From Dehalococcoidia bacterium (GTDB lineage: Bacteria > Chloroflexota > Dehalococcoidia > Tepidiformales > Tepidiformaceae), in contig SKSF01000118.1 of NCBI GenBank assembly GCA_007118095.1, forward strand, positions 1 through 54,275: a stretch of 54,275 nt of DNA, written 5' to 3'. The notes below the pieces were generated by a model. That model was given only the letters and a program-made list of their open reading frames with translations, did not search any database and was not told the origin of the DNA. Below are positions 42,950-54,275 of the stretch, piece after piece. The position numbers were made by a program, and so were the translations under genes. Numbering within the stretch: the first letter of the stretch is position 1; each line of letters begins with the position of its first letter.

Positions 42950-44623
42950 ATGACCGCCAAAGAACGCATCACCCTCAAGCAGCCCGCGACCGCGTCGCGC
43001 GGGATGGTCACCTCGAACCACCCGCTGGCATCGCTTGCCGGGACCGAGACGCTGGTCCGTGGCGGAAACGCAGTCGATGCGGCGATTGCGACCATGTTCG
43101 CGCTCACCGTTGTCGAACCCATGATGGTCACCATCTTCGGAGCAGGGTTCGTCAACGTCCGCTGGGCCAACGGCGAATGCGCCACCGTCGACAACTACGC
43201 CGTCATCCCCTCCGCGGCGGCTCCGGACATGTTCCGGCCGGTGCCCGGCACCCTCGAACACGAAGTTGAGGGCGGCGAGAACGAAGTCGGCCACCGGTCT
43301 GTTGCGGTGGGCGGCACGCTCAAGGGCTGGGCGCATGCAGTCGAACGCTTCGGAAAGATGCCGCTCTCGGAAGTTGTGGCGCCAGCGGTCCGGTATGCCC
43401 GTGACGGGTTCGCCGCGACGCCGTACCTGTGCAGCATCATCCAGCAGGAAGTGGAGCGCATCCGCCGCTTCCCGGAGACCGCAAAGGTCTTCCTCCCCGG
43501 GGGCGAAGTGCCCAAACCCGGTGATACCATCCGCCGCCCCGAGTACGCCGAAACGCTGGAAACCGTCGGGCGCGAAGGTCCGGGGTATCTCTACGACGGA
43601 CCGCTGGGCCGCGCAATTGCTGACGACATGGCGGCGAACGGTGGGCTCATCACCATGGACGACATCCAGGCCTACCGCATCCACGAGCGCCAGCCGGTGC
43701 GCGGCGCCTACCGCGGCCACGAAATCGTCTCCATGGGCCCGCCGTCATCGGGTGGTACGCACATCATCCAGATGCTCAAAATCTTCGAGGGCTTCGACAT
43801 CCCGGCGATGGGGTTCGGCACAGCCGACAGCGTCCACCTCACTGCCGAAGCACTGAAGATAGCCTTCGCCGACCGCTTCGAATACATGGCCGACCCCGCC
43901 ACGACCGATGTTCCGGTCGACTGGCTCATATCCGATGCCTATGCGGCCGAGCGGCGTGCGCAGATCGACATGCGCCGTGCACAGGACTACCACGCCGGTC
44001 TGCCGCCCGACCGCGAGCACGCATCCACTACCCACTGCTGCGCCATGGACGCCGATGGCAATGTCGTCTCAACGACAAACACGCTGCACCTCGGCTTCGG
44101 CTCGAAGGTGACCGTCCCCGGCACCGGCATGCTCCTCAACAACTGTATGCAGCTCATGGACCCCATCCCCGGCAGGACGAACTCCATCGCCCCGGGTAAG
44201 CGCATCCTCTCGTCCATGTCGCCCACCATCGTCCTCAAAGACGGCGCACCATTCCTCGCGCTGGGGACGCCCGGCGCCGTGCGTATCTTCGGGGCGGTCT
44301 TCCAGGCCATCGTCAACGTCATCGACCACGGCATGACGCTGCAGCAGGCGGTCGAGGCGCCGCGCGCATGGGCACGGGGCGAAACGCTCGAACTCGAGGA
44401 AGGCTTCGGCGACGTCGATGCCCTCGACGCTGAGATGCAGCGCCGCGGGCACAGGGTCGAACGCGTCTTCAAAGTCGCCGGTGGGATGAACGGGATCCAG
44501 TACGATGCCGCGACCGGGCTGATGACCGGCGCCGCGTGCTGGCGCGCCGACGGCGCCCCCGTCGGTGTCTCCGGCGGCGACGGGATTGTCGACCCCGATG
44601 TCACCCGGGCAATGTGGCGGTAG
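42950..44623 (+). CDS. gamma-glutamyltransferase family (Ntn-hydrolase) protein
   Basis: A 557-residue Ntn-hydrolase that would self-cleave before Thr360 (AS-TTHCC) to give a large subunit and a 198-residue small subunit, as in GGT. The small subunit carries STTNTLHLGFGSKV, ILSSMSPTIVLKDG and LGTPGAVRI. No signal peptide is seen (start MTAKERITLK), so it probably acts in the cytoplasm, unlike classical periplasmic GGT. The real substrate may be another gamma-glutamyl compound or amide. GGAGGAG precedes the ATG. Confidence 0.88.
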   Translation: MTAKERITLKQPATASRGMVTSNHPLASLAGTETLVRGGNAVDAAIATMFALTVVEPMMVTIFGAGFVNVRWANGECATVDNYAVIPSAAAPDMFRPVPGTLEHEVEGGENEVGHRSVAVGGTLKGWAHAVERFGKMPLSEVVAPAVRYARDGFAATPYLCSIIQQEVERIRRFPETAKVFLPGGEVPKPGDTIRRPEYAETLETVGREGPGYLYDGPLGRAIADDMAANGGLITMDDIQAYRIHERQPVRGAYRGHEIVSMGPPSSGGTHIIQMLKIFEGFDIPAMGFGTADSVHLTAEALKIAFADRFEYMADPATTDVPVDWLISDAYAAERRAQIDMRRAQDYHAGLPPDREHASTTHCCAMDADGNVVSTTNTLHLGFGSKVTVPGTGMLLNNCMQLMDPIPGRTNSIAPGKRILSSMSPTIVLKDGAPFLALGTPGAVRIFGAVFQAIVNVIDHGMTLQQAVEAPRAWARGETLELEEGFGDVDALDAEMQRRGHRVERVFKVAGGMNGIQYDAATGLMTGAACWRADGAPVGVSGGDGIVDPDVTRAMWR

Positions 44624-45158: not shown

Positions 45159-45236
45159 GTGTCCGCCTCTCCCGGCGCTTGGCAGCCGCTTCGCCGACCA
45201 TCTACCCTCACGCGCAGGCACACTGGAGGTGTCGCG

Positions 45237-46442
45237 GTGCCGAAGACACAGGTGGGCATCATCGGCGCGGGCCCGGCCGGCCTCGTGCTCGCGCATCTCC
45301 TGGCGCAGCAGGGCATCGAATCGGTCGTCATCGAGAAGCACAGCCGTGACTACATCGAACACCGCGTCCGCGCCGGCCTGCTCGAACATCGCACCGTTGA
45401 GCTCCTCGACCGTCACGGCCTCGGCGAACGCATGCTCCGCGAAGGCGCCGTCCACCGTGGGACCGAGTTCCGCACCAACGGCGAACGGTACCGCCTTCCC
45501 TATAGCGACCTCTATGGCGGACGGCGCATGCTCGTCTACCCGCAGCAAGAGCTCGTTGCGGACCTGGTGCGCCTGCGCCTCGATGCCGGCGCCCCCATTG
45601 TCTTCGAAGCCGCGGATGTGATGCCGCTTGATATCGAGGGGCCGCAGCCCCGCATCCGGTACACGGTAGATGGCCAGGCCGAGGAGCTTGATTGCGATAT
45701 CATCGCTGGCTGCGACGGCTTCCACGGCGTCTCACGCGATGCGGTCCCACCGGGAGCGCTGAACTTCTATGACCAGCATCTCCCCTTCGGGTGGCTCGGC
45801 ATCCTTGCCGCTGTCGGACCGTCGACGAGCGAGATCATCTACGCGCTGCACGACCGGGGATTCGCCGGGCACATGCTGCGGACCGACACCGTGTCGCGCT
45901 TCTACCTGCAGTGCGCACCGGAGGACGATCCCAACGACTGGGCCGATGACGTCATCTGGGACGAGCTGCAGCGCCGGCTGGCCACGCCCGGCTGGACGCT
46001 TAGCGAGGGCCCGATCATCGAAAAGACCGTCGCCGAGCTGCGCAGCTTCGTTACCGAGCCCATGCAGTATGGCCGCCTGTTCCTCGCCGGTGACGCCGCG
46101 CACATCGCCCCGCCCACGGGCGCGAAGGGGATGAACCTGGCGATCGCCGATGTCGAGGTCCTGGCCGGTGCACTCGGCGACTGGTATCTCACGGGCGACG
46201 ACGTCGGGCTCCAATCGTATTCAGACACCTGTCTCCGGCGAGTCTGGCGCGTACAGGAGTTTTCCACCTGGATGTCGTGGATGCTCCATCGTCCCCCGGA
46301 CGACATGCCGGGCGCCGCGTTTCACCGCAAGATGCAGGAGGCGCGCCTCGAATATGTCTGTACGTCCACGGCCGCCGGCACAAGCTTTGCCGAAAACTAC
46401 GTCGGTATCGAATGGCCCGCGATCGAGGCCGGGAAGGAATGA
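45237..46442 (+). CDS. pobA: 4-hydroxybenzoate 3-monooxygenase
   Basis: A 401-residue FAD monooxygenase that hydroxylates 4-hydroxybenzoate to protocatechuate with NAD(P)H and oxygen. GAGPAG (10-15) binds FAD, HRVRAG (about 42-47) is the R44-type motif, CDGFHGVSR is the DG motif, and GDAAHIAPPTGAKGMNLAIADV the GD/pyrophosphate motif; all match the PHBH family. GTG start with GGAGGT six bases upstream. It heads an operon with the two dioxygenase subunits that use its product, which supports the substrate call. Confidence 0.92.
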   Translation: MPKTQVGIIGAGPAGLVLAHLLAQQGIESVVIEKHSRDYIEHRVRAGLLEHRTVELLDRHGLGERMLREGAVHRGTEFRTNGERYRLPYSDLYGGRRMLVYPQQELVADLVRLRLDAGAPIVFEAADVMPLDIEGPQPRIRYTVDGQAEELDCDIIAGCDGFHGVSRDAVPPGALNFYDQHLPFGWLGILAAVGPSTSEIIYALHDRGFAGHMLRTDTVSRFYLQCAPEDDPNDWADDVIWDELQRRLATPGWTLSEGPIIEKTVAELRSFVTEPMQYGRLFLAGDAAHIAPPTGAKGMNLAIADVEVLAGALGDWYLTGDDVGLQSYSDTCLRRVWRVQEFSTWMSWMLHRPPDDMPGAAFHRKMQEARLEYVCTSTAAGTSFAENYVGIEWPAIEAGKE

Positions 46443-46445
46443 GTC

Positions 46446-47138
46446 ATGTCCGGGTTCCGTCGTGACGACCTCGAAGACCACCCACCGCACCGCTACCCGG
46501 GCTACCGTTCGACGCAAACCCGCGCGCCGTCGCGCCCGCCAGTACCGCTGCCCCATACAGTCTCGGAGACGACCGGGACGCAGTTTTCACGGGCGAACCT
46601 CGGCCCGGTCGACCACGACCTCACCCGGCAGCACGAGGGCCGGCCCATCGGCCAGAAGATTATCGTTACCGGCCGTGTCCTCGACCAGGACGGTACACCA
46701 GTTCCCGGCACGATGGTGGAGACCTGGCAGGCGAACGCCGCCGGCCGCTATGCGCACGACGCAGACCAGCACGACGGCCCGCTCGACCCGAACTTCAGCG
46801 GCGGTGGCAGGTGCCTTACAGGGGATGACGGTACCTACCGGTTCGTGACCATCCAGCCCGGTGCCTATCCCTGGCAGAACCATCCCAACGCCTGGCGGCC
46901 GGCGCACATCCACTTTTCCGTCTTTGGCCCGGCTGTCGCCACGCGACTCATCACCCAGATGTACTTCCCCGGCGACCCCCTGCTCGACCACGACCCTATC
47001 TACCAGTCGGTGCCCCCACACGCCCGCGATCGCCTCGTCGCCACCTTCGACTTCGACGTCACAATCCCGGGCGAAGCGCTCGGCTATACCTTCGACATCG
47101 TCCTGCGCGGCCCCGAAGCCACGCCGCCCGAGGAGTAG
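46446..47138 (+). CDS. pcaH: protocatechuate 3,4-dioxygenase, beta subunit
   Basis: A 230-residue intradiol dioxygenase subunit carrying the non-heme Fe(III) ligands: Tyr102 (AAGRYAHD), Tyr141 (PGAYPWQN), His154 and His156 (RPAHIHF). The spacings (39, 13 and 2) equal those of the Pseudomonas beta subunit (Tyr408, Tyr447, His460, His462). With PcaG it cleaves protocatechuate to 3-carboxy-cis,cis-muconate. It starts three bases after pobA and ends three bases before pcaG. Confidence 0.94.
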   Translation: MSGFRRDDLEDHPPHRYPGYRSTQTRAPSRPPVPLPHTVSETTGTQFSRANLGPVDHDLTRQHEGRPIGQKIIVTGRVLDQDGTPVPGTMVETWQANAAGRYAHDADQHDGPLDPNFSGGGRCLTGDDGTYRFVTIQPGAYPWQNHPNAWRPAHIHFSVFGPAVATRLITQMYFPGDPLLDHDPIYQSVPPHARDRLVATFDFDVTIPGEALGYTFDIVLRGPEATPPEE

Positions 47139-47141
47139 CCC

Positions 47142-47690
47142 ATGGAGTTTGAGCCGACACCCGCGCAGACCATCGGCCCTTTCTTCGCGGTCATGCTGCC
47201 GCTTGGGAGCAACCGGCTTGTCGATGAGAGCACCCCTGGCGCAATCACCATCTCCGGGCGCGTTTTCGACGGTAGTGGCGAGCCCGTCGCCGATGCGCTG
47301 CTCGAAATGTGGCAGGCGGACGCCACGGGTGAATACCCGTCCGGCAGCTATGGCGAGACTGCATTCCCCGGCTTCGGCCGGTGCGCAACCGGCCCCGGTG
47401 GGGAGTTCTCGTTCGTCACCGTGAAGCCGGGACCGGTCCCCGGTCATGACGAGCGCAGGCAGGCACCGCACATGACCGTGACCATCTTCGCCCGTGGGCT
47501 GCTCAACCGCCTCGTCACGCGCATCTACTTCCCCGACGAGGTCCACGCCAACGAGCGCGATCCCCTCCTCCAATCCATCGACGACCCTGCCACCCGCGCG
47601 ACGCTCATCGCCGAACCCACGGGCCCGGCATCCTACCGCTTCGACATCCGCCTCCAGGGCGAAGGGGAGACCGCGTTCCTTGCCATCTGA
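47142..47690 (+). CDS. pcaG: protocatechuate 3,4-dioxygenase, alpha subunit
   Basis: A 182-residue partner of PcaH with the same beta-sandwich fold: PAQTIGPFFAVML at the N-terminus, DGSGEPVADALLEMWQAD and HMTVTIFARGLLNRLVTRIYF. As usual for the alpha subunit the iron ligands are absent. It completes the (alpha-beta)n enzyme. The next gene probably starts inside its last codons. Confidence 0.93.
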   Translation: MEFEPTPAQTIGPFFAVMLPLGSNRLVDESTPGAITISGRVFDGSGEPVADALLEMWQADATGEYPSGSYGETAFPGFGRCATGPGGEFSFVTVKPGPVPGHDERRQAPHMTVTIFARGLLNRLVTRIYFPDEVHANERDPLLQSIDDPATRATLIAEPTGPASYRFDIRLQGEGETAFLAI

Positions 47691-49023
47691 CCCGCCGTTC
47701 TCGTCCATGTTCTCCACAGCGGAGATGCGCCGTGTCGTCTCGGGCGACGCCTGGGTCGCTGCCATGCTCGAAGTCGAGGCTGCACTCGCGCGGGCTGAAG
47801 CGCGTGACGGGATCATCCCGTTCGAAGCGGCGGAGGCCGTTGTTGCTGCTTGTGCCAGTGTCCAACCCGACGTCGATGCGCTTGCCGATGCCACCCTCGC
47901 CGCGGCCAACCCGGCCGGGCCGCTTGTCACTGCACTACGCGCGCACTCCCCCGCCGCTGCCGAGCACGTGCACCACGGCGCCACCAGCCAGGACATCGTG
48001 GATTCCGCCATGATGCTCATCGCCCGGCGCGGTGTCGCGCTCGTGCTGCGGGACCTCGATGCGGCCGCTGCCGTGTGCGCGCACCTTGCCGATGCCCATC
48101 GCGAGACGCCCATGGCTGCCCGCACGCTCCTGCAACAGGCCGTCCCCATGTCCTTCGGGATGAAGGCAGCCACGTGGCTATCGCTTCTTTGCGACGCTCG
48201 TGACCGCCTCTCGGGGCTGCGCTTCCCTGTCCAACTCGGCGGCGCGGCCGGGACCATGTCCGTGCTCGGCTACAGTGGCCCCGCCGTCTCCGATGCCCTG
48301 GCCGACGAGCTCGGCCTCGACATGTCGCCCGTCCCGTGGCACGTGAACCGCACGCCCGTCGTCGATGTCGCCGCTGCAGTTGGGATCGCAGCGGGTGCAT
48401 TCGGCAAGATCGCGCTCGATGTCACCTTGCTTGCCCAACCGGAGGTCGGCGAAGTCCGGGCGGGAAACGGCACGTCCTCCGCGATGCCGCACAAGCAAAA
48501 CCCATCGTCCGCTGTCGCAGTCCAGGCGTGTGCGCGGCGTGCACACGCACTCGTCCCGGTCTTCTTCGGCGCGATGTTCTCTGAGCATGAGCGTGCCACG
48601 GGCGCGTGGCAGGCCGAATGGGAATCGCTCTCGCAACTCCTGGAGCTCACCAGCGCCGCTGCAGCTTCCACGCGCGAGCTTCTCGCCGGGCTCGAAATCG
48701 ATACAGACCGTATGCGCGCCAACCTGGAAGCGCCTCTCCCCGGCCTGGTCATGTCCGAAGCGGTCGTCACAGCCCTTGCGACACACGTCGGCCGCGTGGA
48801 TGCCCGGGCCATCATCGATGGCGCCGTTGCCCGCTCGGTGGAAGCGCATCGTCCCCTGCGCGACGTCCTGCTCGATACCGCCGAAGTATCCGCCGTGCTC
48901 TCACCCGCCGAACTCGATCGCGCACTCGACCCCGCTGCGAGCTTCGGCGCGAGCAGTACACTGATCGACCGGGCGCTCGGACGGTCCCGGCAGGCACGTC
49001 CCGGCGCAGAGGAGGAGCACTGA
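47680..49023 (+). CDS. pcaB: 3-carboxy-cis,cis-muconate cycloisomerase
   Basis: A protein of 447 residues from the fumarase/aspartase superfamily. The signature GTSSAMPHKQNPSS (superfamily GSSxMPxKxNP) and the HGATSQDIVDS block are intact. It lactonises 3-carboxymuconate from the PcaHG reaction. I propose TTG at 47680, which restores the family-like N-terminus (PPFSSMFSTAEM), has AAGGGGAG upstream and overlaps pcaG by 11 bases; ATG 47707 is the alternative. Its stop precedes the next ATG by one base. Confidence 0.9.
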   Translation: MPSDPPFSSMFSTAEMRRVVSGDAWVAAMLEVEAALARAEARDGIIPFEAAEAVVAACASVQPDVDALADATLAAANPAGPLVTALRAHSPAAAEHVHHGATSQDIVDSAMMLIARRGVALVLRDLDAAAAVCAHLADAHRETPMAARTLLQQAVPMSFGMKAATWLSLLCDARDRLSGLRFPVQLGGAAGTMSVLGYSGPAVSDALADELGLDMSPVPWHVNRTPVVDVAAAVGIAAGAFGKIALDVTLLAQPEVGEVRAGNGTSSAMPHKQNPSSAVAVQACARRAHALVPVFFGAMFSEHERATGAWQAEWESLSQLLELTSAAAASTRELLAGLEIDTDRMRANLEAPLPGLVMSEAVVTALATHVGRVDARAIIDGAVARSVEAHRPLRDVLLDTAEVSAVLSPAELDRALDPAASFGASSTLIDRALGRSRQARPGAEEEH

Positions 49024-49024
49024 G

Positions 49025-49573
49025 ATGGCGCGAGTTCCCTATGTCGCACCAGAGGACCTGCCGGCTGAATACCGGCACGTCTTCGACCGCCTGGCCGAGT
49101 CACGGGGCTACGTCCCGAACCTCTATCGCGCAATGGCGAACAGCCCGCACCTGGTCGAACCCTTCGTGCGCATGATGGAGACCACGCGTGCCGAGGCTGC
49201 CCTTCCAAACCAGCTCAAGGAGCTTGCTGTCCTTCGCGTCGCTCAGCTCACCGGCGCTGCGACCATGTGGGCGAGCCACGAAACACTGGCGCGGGATGCT
49301 GGCGTGCCGGGCGCGAAGTTGCGCGCGCTCGCGGTCTGGCGGAGCCATGCAATCTTCACCAGCGAAGAGAGTGCCGCCCTCTCCTATGCCGAGGCGGCGA
49401 CCCGTGACGTCCGCGTTGATGACGCTACCTGGGAAGACGTGCGGTCCCACTTCACCCATGAGCAGCAGACGGAACTCGTCATCGCGGTCGCCTTCTACAA
49501 CATGGTCGCCCGCATCTCTGAGCCGCTGGCGCTGGAACTCGATCTCCGGTACCTGGACACCGAAGCAGACTGA
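49025..49573 (+). CDS. carboxymuconolactone decarboxylase-family protein
   Basis: A 182-residue helical CMD/AhpD-family protein. The peroxidase-type CxxC is absent: the corresponding stretch reads ATMWASHETLARDAG, so a decarboxylase-like or other role is more likely than AhpD-type reduction. Position after pcaB suggests it does the next step (4-carboxymuconolactone to beta-ketoadipate enol-lactone, PcaC), but it is longer than typical PcaC (about 130) and closer to the general CMD group, so I leave the symbol blank. Confidence 0.75.
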   Translation: MARVPYVAPEDLPAEYRHVFDRLAESRGYVPNLYRAMANSPHLVEPFVRMMETTRAEAALPNQLKELAVLRVAQLTGAATMWASHETLARDAGVPGAKLRALAVWRSHAIFTSEESAALSYAEAATRDVRVDDATWEDVRSHFTHEQQTELVIAVAFYNMVARISEPLALELDLRYLDTEAD

Positions 49574-49656: not shown

Positions 49657-51624
49657 TCAGTGGGCCTCTTTCGCGCCATCGATAATGCCGTCAACGACCG
49701 CTGGTTCGGCCAGCGTCGTCACGTCGCCGACGTTCTCCGGTTCACCCTCGGCAACTTTGCGAAGGATCCTCCGCATGATCTTCCCGGAACGGGTCTTCGG
49801 AAGGCCTTCGACGAATTGCAGCTTGTCGGGTGTCGCAATTGCGCTGATCTCCGTCCGGACGGCCTGCCGAAGCTCCTGCGCGAGCTGCGGCGACGCTTCA
49901 TACCCGGCAGCCAGCAGCACATACGCGTAGATGCCCTGGCCCTTCACGTCATGCGGGAATCCGACGACCGCCGCTTCGGCGCACGCCGGGTGTCCGACAA
50001 GCGCGCCTTCGATCTCGGCCGTGCCGAGGCGGTGGCCCGCGGTGTTCAGCACGTCATCGACCCGGCCGGTAATCCAGTAGTATCCGTCCTTGTCCCGGTG
50101 GCAGCCGTCGCCGGTGAAATACTTGCCCTTGAACGCGCTGAGGTAGGTATCGATGAAGCGCTGATGGTCCCCGTAGACCGTCCGCATCATCCCCGGCCAC
50201 GACGTCTTGATGCAGAGCGCTCCGCTCACGTCGTTGCCTTCGATCTCGTTGCCAGATTCGTCCACAACGGCTGGCTGCACGCCAAGGAACGGCACTGTAG
50301 CCGAGCCTGGCTTCATTTCGATGGCGCCCGGGATGGGCGTAATCATGTGGCCGCCCGTTTCAGTCTGCCAGTACGTATCGACGACCGCGCAGCGCTCGCT
50401 ACCGACCACCCTGTAGTACCAGCGCCACGCCTCCGGGTTGATGGGCTCACCGACCGTCCCGAGGATACGCAGTGAATCCCGCTTGTAGCGGGTCACATAC
50501 TCGTCGCCTTCGCGGGCAATCGCGCGGATGGCCGTCGGCGCCGTGTAGAAAATGGTGATACCCAGCCGGTCCACCATGTCCCAGTAGCGACCGGCGTCCG
50601 GGTAGGTCGGCACCGATTCGAACAGCACGGTCGTGCCGCCGGCGCCCAGCGGGCCATAGACGATGTAGCTGTGGCCGGTCACCCACCCGATGTCTGCGGC
50701 GCAGCAGTAAATGTCGTCGTCCTGCATGTCGAACACGAGCTTCTGCGACAGCGTTGTGTGCAGCAGATAGCCCGCCTGCGTGTGCAGCACGCCCTTTGGC
50801 TTCCCGGTCGAACCGGAGGTGTACAGGATGAAGAGCGGGTCTTCCGAATCCATCGGCTCTGGTTCGCACTCGGCTGGCTGAGTCGCGAGCTCCTCGTGCC
50901 ACCAGAAGTCCCGTCCCCTGGTCATCGGGACGTCGTTCGCGGTGCGCTGGTACACCAGCGTGAACTCGACGCTATCCGCGCCAGCGTTCAGTGCATCGTC
51001 CACGTTCTGCTTCAACGGGACGCCCCGGCCGCCGCGGCGGCCTTCGTCCTGGGTGATAATCGCGCGGCACGTCGAGTCCTCCACGCGGTCCTGGATCGAA
51101 CGGGGGCTGAACCCGCCGAAAATCACCGAGTGGATAGCGCCAACGCGGGCGCACGCGAGCATCGCCACGGGGAGCTCCGGCACCATCCCCATATAGATGG
51201 CGACCCGGTCGCCCTTCTTGATGCCCTTCGCACGCAGCCAGTTCGCGAGGCGGTTGGTCTCCTGCGACAGCTCGCGGTACGTCATCTCCCGGTACTCTCC
51301 GGGCTCATCCCCCTCCCAGAGGATGGCCTTCTTGTCCGGGTTCTTCCGGGCGTGCCGGTCGACGCAGTTCACCGAGGCGTTCAGCTTGCCGCCGAGGAAC
51401 CATGCGATCTTCCCGGCGGGCAGATCCTCCTCCTTCACCTTCTTGAACGGCTCCATCCACTCCAGGTGCTCGTTCGCCATCTCGGTCCAGAACGCGTCTA
51501 CGTCTTCGAGGCTCCGGCGGTAGAGCTCGTCCCACTGCTCCCGGCTCTGGATGCGCGCACGTTCGCTGACGTGGCCCGGCGGCGGATAGCGCTCGGCTAC
51601 GGGCATTCCGATCTCTTGCGTCAT
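49657..51624 (-). CDS. acs: acetyl-CoA synthetase
   Basis: A 655-residue AMP-forming ligase: acetate + ATP + CoA to acetyl-CoA. Family motifs are YTSGSTGKPKGVLHTQAGY (P-loop), VDTYWQTETGGHMITPIPG, TGDGCHRDKDGYYWITGRVDD, and the C-terminal TRSGKIMRRILRK with the acylated/adenylation Lys. Length is usual (about 650). The ribosome site AAGGAGG sits nine bases before the ATG. It lies downstream of the CoA-transferase pair on the same strand, 150 bases away. A terminator follows. Confidence 0.96.
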   Translation of the reverse strand: MTQEIGMPVAERYPPPGHVSERARIQSREQWDELYRRSLEDVDAFWTEMANEHLEWMEPFKKVKEEDLPAGKIAWFLGGKLNASVNCVDRHARKNPDKKAILWEGDEPGEYREMTYRELSQETNRLANWLRAKGIKKGDRVAIYMGMVPELPVAMLACARVGAIHSVIFGGFSPRSIQDRVEDSTCRAIITQDEGRRGGRGVPLKQNVDDALNAGADSVEFTLVYQRTANDVPMTRGRDFWWHEELATQPAECEPEPMDSEDPLFILYTSGSTGKPKGVLHTQAGYLLHTTLSQKLVFDMQDDDIYCCAADIGWVTGHSYIVYGPLGAGGTTVLFESVPTYPDAGRYWDMVDRLGITIFYTAPTAIRAIAREGDEYVTRYKRDSLRILGTVGEPINPEAWRWYYRVVGSERCAVVDTYWQTETGGHMITPIPGAIEMKPGSATVPFLGVQPAVVDESGNEIEGNDVSGALCIKTSWPGMMRTVYGDHQRFIDTYLSAFKGKYFTGDGCHRDKDGYYWITGRVDDVLNTAGHRLGTAEIEGALVGHPACAEAAVVGFPHDVKGQGIYAYVLLAAGYEASPQLAQELRQAVRTEISAIATPDKLQFVEGLPKTRSGKIMRRILRKVAEGEPENVGDVTTLAEPAVVDGIIDGAKEAH

Positions 51625-51774: not shown

Positions 51775-53103
51775 TTATGGGACGCTCTCGTCGTAGTCCA
51801 TCGTGATATGTCCCTCCGCGCGCATGTGCTCGATTTCCTCATCGGTCATCTGCAGCACTTCGCGGTACACATACTCGTTGTGCTCTCCGAACATAACCGG
51901 CGGCTGGCGGAACTCGACCGGCGTTTCGGGCAACTTCCACATCGGGCCGACGTATTCTTTCGTCCCCGCGCCCTCCACTGTCTGTGTCCTGAAGAAGTCG
52001 CGGTCCCGCAGATGCGGGTCGTCGAACATCCGGGACGCTTCCAGCACCGGCGCCGCCGCGATCCCGAAGGCCTGTAGCTGGTGCATCAGGTCGTAGTCCT
52101 CGTGCTCCGCCGTATAGGCCGCGATATTCGCGTCGATCTCGCGGAAGTGTTGCGCGCGCCCTTCGTTCGTCTTGAACCGCTCGTCACGTGCCCATTCCGG
52201 GCTCCCGATCGCCTCGACAAAGCGCTCCCACTGGTCATCGGTCTCGATGTGGATCGAGACCCAGTGGTCCTCCATCGTTTGTGCGGTCCCGGGGGACTTC
52301 GCCGGGTACACGCCGCAGGGGTAGCGACCAAACACGTCACGATTCCCGATCGCGCTCATCGTGCGGCCGTTCATGGTGTAGTCCATCACGGCCTGCGTGA
52401 ACATCGCCGTCGCGTTTTCGGCCTGGGCAATCTCGATCATCTGGCCTTCGCCCGTGCGTTCCCGGTGCCAGAGCGCGGTCATCACGGCGAACGCGCCCTG
52501 CGCCCCCGCAAGGTAGTCGCCGGAATAGATAACCGAGTTCGACGAAGGATCGGCGTCGTCGTAGCCGCGAAGGAGCGTGTGCCCCATCACGCCTTCCAGG
52601 TGCACGCCGAGCGCGCGGGCCGTCGCATAAGGTCCACTCGACCCGTATGCCGGGACGCGGACGAAGATGATCTGCGGGTTCACTTCCTTCAGCCAGTCGT
52701 AGGTGATGCCCAGCTTTTCCATCGTCCCGGTCGCGTTGTTCTCGTAGACAACGTCCGAATTCGCCACCAGCCGGCGCAGCACGTCCATGCCTTCGGCTCG
52801 CCGCAGGTCCACGGTGAAGCTCTTCTTGTTCCGGTAGACGCTCACGAACGTTGGGCAGTAGTTCCAGGGCCGCTCGCCAGGCTCGTTGTTCGGATAGCCG
52901 CCACCAAACGCGGGTGTCCCATGGAGCAGCTCGGCGGGCGGCCGCGCAAGCGCGCCACGTGTCATCGGCTGCCACACAAAGGGGTTCTCTGGCTTAATCA
53001 CCTCGGCGCCTAGGTCGCCGAGCTGCACGGTCGCGAAGGGCCCCGCCCAAACGACACAGAGGTCGACAATGCGGACACCGTCGAGCGGTTTCTTGCTGCT
53101 CAT
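51775..53103 (-). CDS. CaiB/BaiF (class III) CoA-transferase with catalytic Asp
   Basis: A 442-residue family III CoA-transferase. The N-terminal CoA-binding part (GVRIVDLCVVWAGPFATVQLGDLGAEVIKPE) is followed by the active-site Asp196 in SGDYLAGAQGAF, which in this family forms the acyl-aspartyl anhydride and CoA thioester. The acyl substrate is unknown. The ATG lies in a TGA/ATG overlap of four bases with the upstream homologue, so the two proteins are probably made together and may form a heterodimer. It follows, in transcription order, the copy that lacks the Asp. Confidence 0.88.
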   Translation of the reverse strand: MSSKKPLDGVRIVDLCVVWAGPFATVQLGDLGAEVIKPENPFVWQPMTRGALARPPAELLHGTPAFGGGYPNNEPGERPWNYCPTFVSVYRNKKSFTVDLRRAEGMDVLRRLVANSDVVYENNATGTMEKLGITYDWLKEVNPQIIFVRVPAYGSSGPYATARALGVHLEGVMGHTLLRGYDDADPSSNSVIYSGDYLAGAQGAFAVMTALWHRERTGEGQMIEIAQAENATAMFTQAVMDYTMNGRTMSAIGNRDVFGRYPCGVYPAKSPGTAQTMEDHWVSIHIETDDQWERFVEAIGSPEWARDERFKTNEGRAQHFREIDANIAAYTAEHEDYDLMHQLQAFGIAAAPVLEASRMFDDPHLRDRDFFRTQTVEGAGTKEYVGPMWKLPETPVEFRQPPVMFGEHNEYVYREVLQMTDEEIEHMRAEGHITMDYDESVP

Positions 53104-54275
53104 TGCACTCCCTCCGCCTGCATGATGCTTGCGATGGTTTCGGTTGGGACACCCGCTTCGGCGAGGACCTCTTCCGTGTGTTCGCCGAAGAGCGGCGCGG
53201 GCCGGCGAAGATCCCAGCCGCCCCGTTCCATGATGAACGGCCGGCCGGGGAACTTGACCTTGCCCATCACCGGGTGGTTCGTCTCGGTCCAGAATTCCCG
53301 GTCGCTGAAGTGGTCGTCGTGGAACAGGTCTTCCATCGTGAAGAGCGGCCCGCAAAGTACTTTCGCGCGCCTCGCTTCTTCCCAGATCTCCTTCTTCGTC
53401 CGCTCGAGGCACCAGACCAGGAAATGCGCGTTCCATTCCTCCACCAGGTCCGGGTTGAGCCGCGCCGTGCGGTCCTGGAACCGCTCATCTGTCGCCCAAT
53501 CCGCGTAGTTCACCATTTCCATGATCCGGTCATAGCGCAGCCCGGCGTTGTTGAAGTCCACGTACCCGTCGGCACAGGGGTAGATGCCGCCCGGCATGCC
53601 GCTGGCCGCGCTGGCCATCCGCATCATCTTGCGGCCGCTGAACTGGTATGCGATCGCAGTCGCGTGCCTGCGGTCGACGCCGCCGAACTGAGTCTCGGCA
53701 AGTGAGACATCCACGTGCTGTGCGACGCCATGTTGCTTCGCCGCCCAGAGCGCGCCCATCGTCGCGGTGGCTATAGAAGAGCCGGATTCGAACAGCGCCG
53801 CCGTCCCGAACATCTTCACTGGCTCCCGGTCGTTCTCCCCCATCGAGTACATCTCACCGGCGAACCCGTAGAGCACGAGCTCCGTGAGCCGGTAGTCGCG
53901 ATAAGGTCCCGTCTGCCCGAAGTTCGACGCGGACACCAGCGAGAGATTTGGGTTTACCTGCTGGAGCCAGTCCCAGCCAATTCCCAGCCTGTCGAGCGTC
54001 CCTGGCGCGAAGTTCTCCACCGCGATGTCCGCCCGCTTCGCCAGCGCCGCCAGTGCTTCCTTCCCCTCCGGGCGCTTCAGGTCGAGCGCCACCGAGCGCT
54101 TGTTGGTATTGAGGTAGAAGAACAGGCCGCTCTTCTCCGGGTGCTCGTCGTCGCCCATGAACGGGCCAAACCTCCGCGCGATATCCCCTTCCGGAGGCTC
54201 CACCTTCATAACGTTGGCCCCATAATCGGCGAAGAGTTTCGTCGCATAGGGGCCCGCGATGTGATGTGTGAGGTC
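53100..54275 (-). CDS. CaiB/BaiF CoA-transferase homologue lacking the catalytic Asp (5' partial)
   Basis: The gene runs off the window edge; 391 codons are visible. The conserved segment GPYATKLFADYGANVMKVEPPEGD and later VDVSLAET identify the family. At the active site the sequence is GTAALFESGSSIATATMGAL; aligned with the downstream copy (SGDYLAGAQGAFAVMTAL), the catalytic Asp is replaced by Leu. It overlaps the downstream gene by four bases. A non-catalytic partner in a heterodimer is the simplest explanation; an inactive paralogue is the alternative. Confidence 0.85.
   Translation of the reverse strand, partial: DLTHHIAGPYATKLFADYGANVMKVEPPEGDIARRFGPFMGDDEHPEKSGLFFYLNTNKRSVALDLKRPEGKEALAALAKRADIAVENFAPGTLDRLGIGWDWLQQVNPNLSLVSASNFGQTGPYRDYRLTELVLYGFAGEMYSMGENDREPVKMFGTAALFESGSSIATATMGALWAAKQHGVAQHVDVSLAETQFGGVDRRHATAIAYQFSGRKMMRMASAASGMPGGIYPCADGYVDFNNAGLRYDRIMEMVNYADWATDERFQDRTARLNPDLVEEWNAHFLVWCLERTKKEIWEEARRAKVLCGPLFTMEDLFHDDHFSDREFWTETNHPVMGKVKFPGRPFIMERGGWDLRRPAPLFGEHTEEVLAEAGVPTETIASIMQAEGVQ

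Follow-up and report, generated by a model that had tools for sequence, protein, structure and literature searches.

The window considered here, a stretch of 54,275 nucleotides comprising the whole of contig SKSF01000118.1 (C142) in a draft Dehalococcoidia genome of 3.23 Mb and 227 contigs, carries at one end two overlapping genes of the CaiB/BaiF family, and the question raised by this locus is whether their products are separate enzymes or parts of a single one. An earlier note on this DNA had described two CaiB/BaiF copies joined by a four-base overlap, stated that only one of them keeps the catalytic Asp, and regarded a heterodimer with one catalytic subunit as plausible. Both open reading frames were recovered, each matching PF02515 with E < 1e-80, and the overlap is ATGA. 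It is very probable that the products of the two genes are the alpha and beta subunits of a single heteromeric class III CoA-transferase built like benzylsuccinate CoA-transferase (PDB 9fn0), a reading in which co-assembly and activity are deduced from sequence comparison.

The overlapping gene pair and its catalytic Asp column

The upstream protein is termed alpha and the downstream protein beta. The alpha gene (53100..54275, reverse strand) is assigned to the non-catalytic subunit on the basis of its PF02515 match (E 1.7e-82, model positions 8-366 in a profile search), its similarity to 9fn0 chain A and its placement in the non-Asp lineage. Its 5' end is lost at the contig end, so that 391 codons remain and approximately 12 are missing; the closest named relative, a Dehalococcoidia MAG of the same genus (contig SLAK01000009.1, 80% identity), has an intact alpha gene, and the intact homologue of the same-genus relative (L075) begins at MQQALDDVVVLDLTQH, about 12 residues further upstream. 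The beta gene (51775..53103, reverse strand; 442 aa) is assigned to the catalytic subunit by its PF02515 match (E 1.4e-88, model positions 1-366), its similarity to 9fn0 chain B and its position in the Asp-bearing paired lineage. The ATGA at 53100..53103 on the same strand contains both the stop codon of alpha and the start codon of beta, and this arrangement is kept in the 29 orthologous loci, where beta starts directly at the alpha stop, mostly through ATGA or GTGA and otherwise through TGATG. Overlapping gene pairs often code for heteromeric complexes, according to a published study (PMC10666635), and the overlap observed here would keep the synthesis of the two subunits coupled.

Alignment places Leu161 of alpha (GTAALFES; codon at 53793..53795, reverse strand) at the position of the catalytic Asp169 of formyl-CoA transferase (FRC) and of Asp196 in beta (SGDYLAG; codon at 52516..52518, reverse strand), which confirms that a single member of the pair keeps the catalytic residue. 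Among the 29 orthologous loci, alpha has Leu at this column in 28 and Cys in one, while the beta partner has Asp in all of them; this consistency, together with the conserved gene junction, indicates that the Asp loss in alpha is no accident of sequencing or assembly. The residue that alpha would require as its own catalyst is thus absent, whereas beta possesses it. Glu163, the acid nearest Leu161, was considered as a stand-in nucleophile and ruled out, since it is replaced by Gln in six of the 29 orthologues and is therefore no conserved substitute for Asp.

The loss of the catalytic Asp, along with the frequent loss in alpha subunits of the residues equivalent to FRC Asn96 and Arg187, could suggest that alpha is a decaying, functionless duplicate of beta. 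The selection and conservation data refute this interpretation, to which practically no probability is attached. Comparison of this genome with the same-genus relative by the Nei-Gojobori method gives alpha a dN/dS ratio of 0.12 and beta one of 0.14, so that alpha is under purifying selection equal in strength to that on beta. Furthermore, alpha orthologues at the 29 loci are 55-80% identical with an undamaged reading frame, their mean identity being 66% compared with 69% for beta, and the trees described below indicate that the two lineages are old and not the result of recent duplication.

Pairing and lineages of Asp-bearing and Asp-lacking copies

The genome contains 67 PF02515 matches, and neighbouring copies were surveyed in it and in three other genomes of the same family (Tepidiformaceae), two of which are single-contig assemblies, with the residue at the Asp column read for each copy. 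Same-strand neighbours in the four genomes form 48 Asp/non-Asp pairs (adjacent or fused), seven Asp/Asp pairs and no non-Asp/non-Asp pair; the window pair is one of approximately 20 in its genome, several of which are single fused open reading frames of about 720-910 aa. When the labels were shuffled within genomes, a mean of 24 Asp/non-Asp pairs and a maximum of 38 in 10,000 shuffles were obtained, and a shuffle restricted to paired copies gave a mean of 28 and a maximum of 42, compared with the 48 observed. Shuffled labels always left at least three unpaired non-Asp copies, against one in the real data, and solitary copies in the four genomes have Asp, the exception being C225, which is truncated and lies where its contig ends. 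The gene order is likewise regular, with alpha first in 45 of 50 pairs. Several solitary copies (C39, C187 and two orthologues) seemed to carry Phe at the Asp column, which proved to be a one-column misalignment, as Asp is present there (NLIADFAGGG, NLVGDFGGGG).

The seven Asp/Asp neighbours consist of the C37 pair, C56-type pairs in three genomes, C140-type pairs in two and one pair in G035. The first of these (G000, C37:2094-4493) arose by recent tandem duplication of a CoA-transferase of the solitary type with Asp and lies outside the alpha and beta lineages. At G000 C56:5437-8233, as at the orthologous loci of G021 and G035, an Asp-bearing beta has beside it an alpha-lineage copy with Asp (QADYQGG), approximately 500-600 bp separating the two domains. 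The Asp of these alpha copies may have been either regained or retained. The presence of Asp on the alpha-lineage members of the C56-type, C140-type and remaining G035 pairs means that Asp loss is typical of alpha and not absolute.

The same arrangement extends beyond the family. In G043, from another family of the class, nearly all copies belong to Asp/non-Asp pairs, mostly fused, and G040 combines fused and split pairs with solitary Asp copies. On one contig of the latter, a beta-type gene with Asp (L200, C2:96089-97237, forward strand) and an alpha-type gene with Ser (L204, C2:108453-109565, reverse strand) lie about 11 kb apart and possibly constitute a split pair. A plasmid of Rhodococcus qingshengii carries a His/Asp pair with a 4-nt overlap that falls on the same branch as the window pair, and Variovorax SRS16 has, also on a plasmid, a fused Tyr/Asp protein adjoining an acyl-CoA dehydrogenase and near an HMG-CoA lyase.

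Two phylogenies place these copies in corresponding lineages. In a FastTree tree of 157 domains, the alpha lineage (support 98) consists of 51 rows, comprising 44 non-Asp copies, six Asp copies and 9fn0 chain A, and the beta lineage (support 100) consists of 54 rows, comprising 52 paired Asp copies, one solitary copy and 9fn0 chain B. The Asp column is invariant in the beta lineage (54/54), whereas the alpha lineage shows Tyr in 15 rows, Leu in nine, Asp in six, Ala, Gln and Glu in four each, Asn in two, and Ser, Gly, Thr, Met, His, Phe and Trp in one each, giving 13 kinds of non-Asp residue. Pairwise distances among alpha subunits correlate with those among their beta partners: r is 0.84 when 51 pairs are compared and 0.68 when only this genome's 20 paralogous pairs are, and none of 5000 permutations gave as high a value. 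An unrooted IQ-TREE tree under a mixture model, to which G043, Rhodococcus and Variovorax were added, requires only two changes to split Asp from non-Asp copies, with the C56 alpha as the sole exception. Around the window pair, alpha and beta branch alike in this tree with respect to the Rhodococcus pair, the grouping of C142 with C214, and that of C13 with G043 copies. The FastTree topology had suggested that Asp/non-Asp pairs arose independently a second time, but this was set aside, given that the mixture-model tree groups C225, the one member of that set included in it, with other non-Asp copies.

The closest solved relatives of the two proteins are the chains of one enzyme. The best match of alpha among PDB sequences is 9fn0 chain A (E 8e-48), that of beta is 9fn0 chain B (E 1e-46), and the cross matches (alpha with chain B, beta with chain A) are clearly weaker. 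The PDB entry is described as a 'subunit of benzylsuccinate CoA-transferase', and its subunits are referred to here by chain, not as BbsE or BbsF; a search of the open-access literature found no paper on the structure. At the Asp position, chain A has Tyr (NQAYRMAE) and chain B has Asp (NYTDHVM).

These results bear on the alternative that the two genes specify independent homodimers, with beta as a conventional class III CoA-transferase and alpha serving another reaction with the same fold, such as CoA-ester binding or a lyase reaction using a different residue. Solved single-gene members are indeed homodimers (PMC3720670, PMC9813914), and alpha retains an acid at the position of FRC Glu140 (Glu132; codon at 53880..53882, reverse strand), which is conserved as Asp or Glu in all 29 orthologues. 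However, the same acid occurs in solitary enzymes and is thus probably ancestral rather than a sign of new function. In addition, a full-length non-Asp copy hardly ever occurs by itself and in many cases shares one reading frame with an Asp copy, the branching of the alpha tree parallels that of the beta tree, and the nearest structures are partner chains, which together render two homodimers improbable. The heterodimer suggested in the earlier note accordingly gains support from the 9fn0 chains, the obligatory pairing, the fusions, the co-branching trees and the equal selection on both genes.

Probable site architecture and proposed roles of the subunits

In the family, the Asp and the substrate loop of an active site are supplied by different subunits, as described for YfdE (PMC3720670), and the catalytic Asp forms acyl-anhydride and aspartyl-CoA intermediates (PMC9813914). 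Applied to the window pair, this would imply that an alpha and a beta chain interlock as family dimers do and that beta supplies the Asp at which both intermediates arise. With alpha devoid of this residue, each alpha-beta pair would contain one working site, and, given a single Asp per pair, that site should lie where the large domain of beta faces the small domain of alpha. The reaction would convert an organic acid into its CoA thioester, probably in preparation for beta-oxidation, and would draw the CoA from acetyl-CoA or a different acyl-CoA.

The residues retained by the subunits differ in a complementary manner. Alpha subunits and solitary enzymes retain the acid at FRC position 140, where 92% of beta subunits have Gly instead, while beta preserves the residues on the Asp side (FRC Asn96, Asp169 and Arg187), which are frequently missing from alpha; the DG motif, conversely, is kept in alpha and lost in beta. 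Divergence is also unequal, since paralogues have a mean identity of 28% for alpha and 34% for beta, alpha having the lower value in 175 of the 190 comparisons; in addition, the loop that precedes the DG motif in alpha is hypervariable. The faster divergence of alpha and its hypervariable loop are consistent with a role of this subunit in substrate specificity. The earlier note had suggested for the upstream copy a structural or substrate-binding function; a solely structural description would understate its part, as the partner-facing small domain is intact and is also the variable part. An AlphaFold2 prediction of alpha, generated with one relative as input, reached a pLDDT of 31 and was set aside.

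A heterodimer could also be real with alpha acting mainly as a regulatory or stabilising partner that does not set substrate specificity, a possibility of some substance, though on the unlikely side. It draws on the small-domain loop of beta, GN...APHG (GN...P.G.Y; approximately 52355-52280 in the window), which is strongly conserved among beta paralogues, its Asn being present in 96%, while the alpha loop is not conserved. This beta loop would face the dead half-site of alpha, and a single-site model leaves its conservation unexplained. On the other hand, in solved homodimers it is the partner subunit that provides the loop facing the Asp (YfdE, PMC3720670), and the lower identity among alpha paralogues is what would be expected of a specificity subunit.

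Taking the heteromeric enzyme with a specificity-setting alpha as the preferred reading, a wider generalisation can be formulated, for which the chances appear evenly balanced. It holds that these proteins represent an asymmetric class III lineage in which an ancient, non-catalytic specificity alpha is paired with or fused to a catalytic beta, with roughly 8 to 20 pairs per genome in the family, so that a large share of the numerous genes counted as 'CoA-transferase' in these organisms would encode substrate-recognising halves and no catalyst. The two subunits would have undergone complementary remodelling, in which alpha has lost Asp169 but not the acid at FRC 140, while beta shows the reverse with Gly at position 140.

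Relation to known systems and gene context

Several characterised systems resemble the window pair in part. BbsEF (PDB 9fn0, 9fol, 9fun) is composed of two different CaiB/BaiF chains, one of which has the Asp, and the window alpha and beta fall in the corresponding chain lineages. In contrast to BbsEF, the window proteins are distant in sequence, beta contains a long insert after approximately residue 45 and SGDY instead of YTDH, and no bss or bbs genes lie in the window neighbourhood, nor were any bbs genes recognised in the contexts of relatives. The pair is thus best described, from its sequence features, as BbsEF-like, with nothing marking benzylsuccinate CoA-transferase proper. DddD, the DMSP CoA-transferase/lyase, contains two CaiB domains in one chain (residues 1-416 and 439-821 in the Endozoicomonas enzyme; PMC7174347), as do the fused alpha-beta reading frames of this genome, and uses acetyl-CoA as donor (PMC8163506); it differs in being fused and in catalysing a lyase step, whereas the window pair consists of two separate overlapping genes. 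SmtAB, the succinyl-CoA:malate CoA-transferase of Chloroflexus, resembles the pair in having two genes, smtA and smtB, for one activity (PMC3150298). The homodimeric class III enzymes FRC, YfdE, CaiB and Mct, as well as AMACR, share the fold and catalytic Asp of beta but have one gene and two equal active sites, and the solitary copies of this genome belong with them.

Expansion of CaiB/BaiF in related Chloroflexota and asymmetry of the BbsEF type are both already known. For SAR202, many paralogous copies have been reported, some closest to DddD (Landry et al. 2017, PMC5395668), and the available text of that paper gives copy numbers with no mention of pairs or Asp loss. What is added by the present analysis is that the asymmetric arrangement appears to be an old and widely used design. 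No statement that CaiB/BaiF copies form catalytic/non-catalytic pairs, no account of such a genome-wide rule and no paper on non-catalytic CaiB subunits was found among the open-access papers searched. Annotation treats each CaiB/BaiF gene as a CoA-transferase in its own right, and a high copy number is taken to indicate metabolic breadth, as for SAR202 (PMC5395668). If obligatory non-catalytic partners make up about a third of the copies, tests that express these genes singly will fail, there will be fewer enzymes than gene counts suggest, and substrate specificity should be sought in the alpha subunit.

With regard to the substrate, the gene context offers suggestions. The operon around the Rhodococcus qingshengii pair includes an ABC transporter, two acyl-CoA dehydrogenases, two MaoC proteins (hydratases), a thiolase and SDRs, which suggests, by analogy, a putative carboxylate substrate entering beta-oxidation. 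Directly downstream of the window pair is an acetyl-CoA synthetase gene, acs (49657..51624, reverse strand; PF00501/PF13193/PF16177). The earlier note had pointed to acs on the same strand, which is correct for the window, although the linkage is kept in only four of 11 relative contexts and missing in the other seven. Re-activation by acs of the acetate that would be released if acetyl-CoA were the donor is therefore a weak lead. In G021, an acetyl-CoA hydrolase/transferase-family gene (L076, 1747-3213, reverse strand) lies beside the orthologous pair as a second acetate/CoA gene in such a position.

On the strand opposite to the CoA-transferase pair, the window further contains a protocatechuate-type gene set (45159-49573, forward strand), which comprises a FAD monooxygenase similar to 4-hydroxybenzoate hydroxylase, two protocatechuate 3,4-dioxygenase-type subunits, a lyase of the muconate cycloisomerase/adenylosuccinate lyase family and a carboxymuconolactone decarboxylase-family protein. 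A gamma-glutamyltranspeptidase-family gene (PF01019, E 5e-143) is located at 42950-44623, also on the forward strand.
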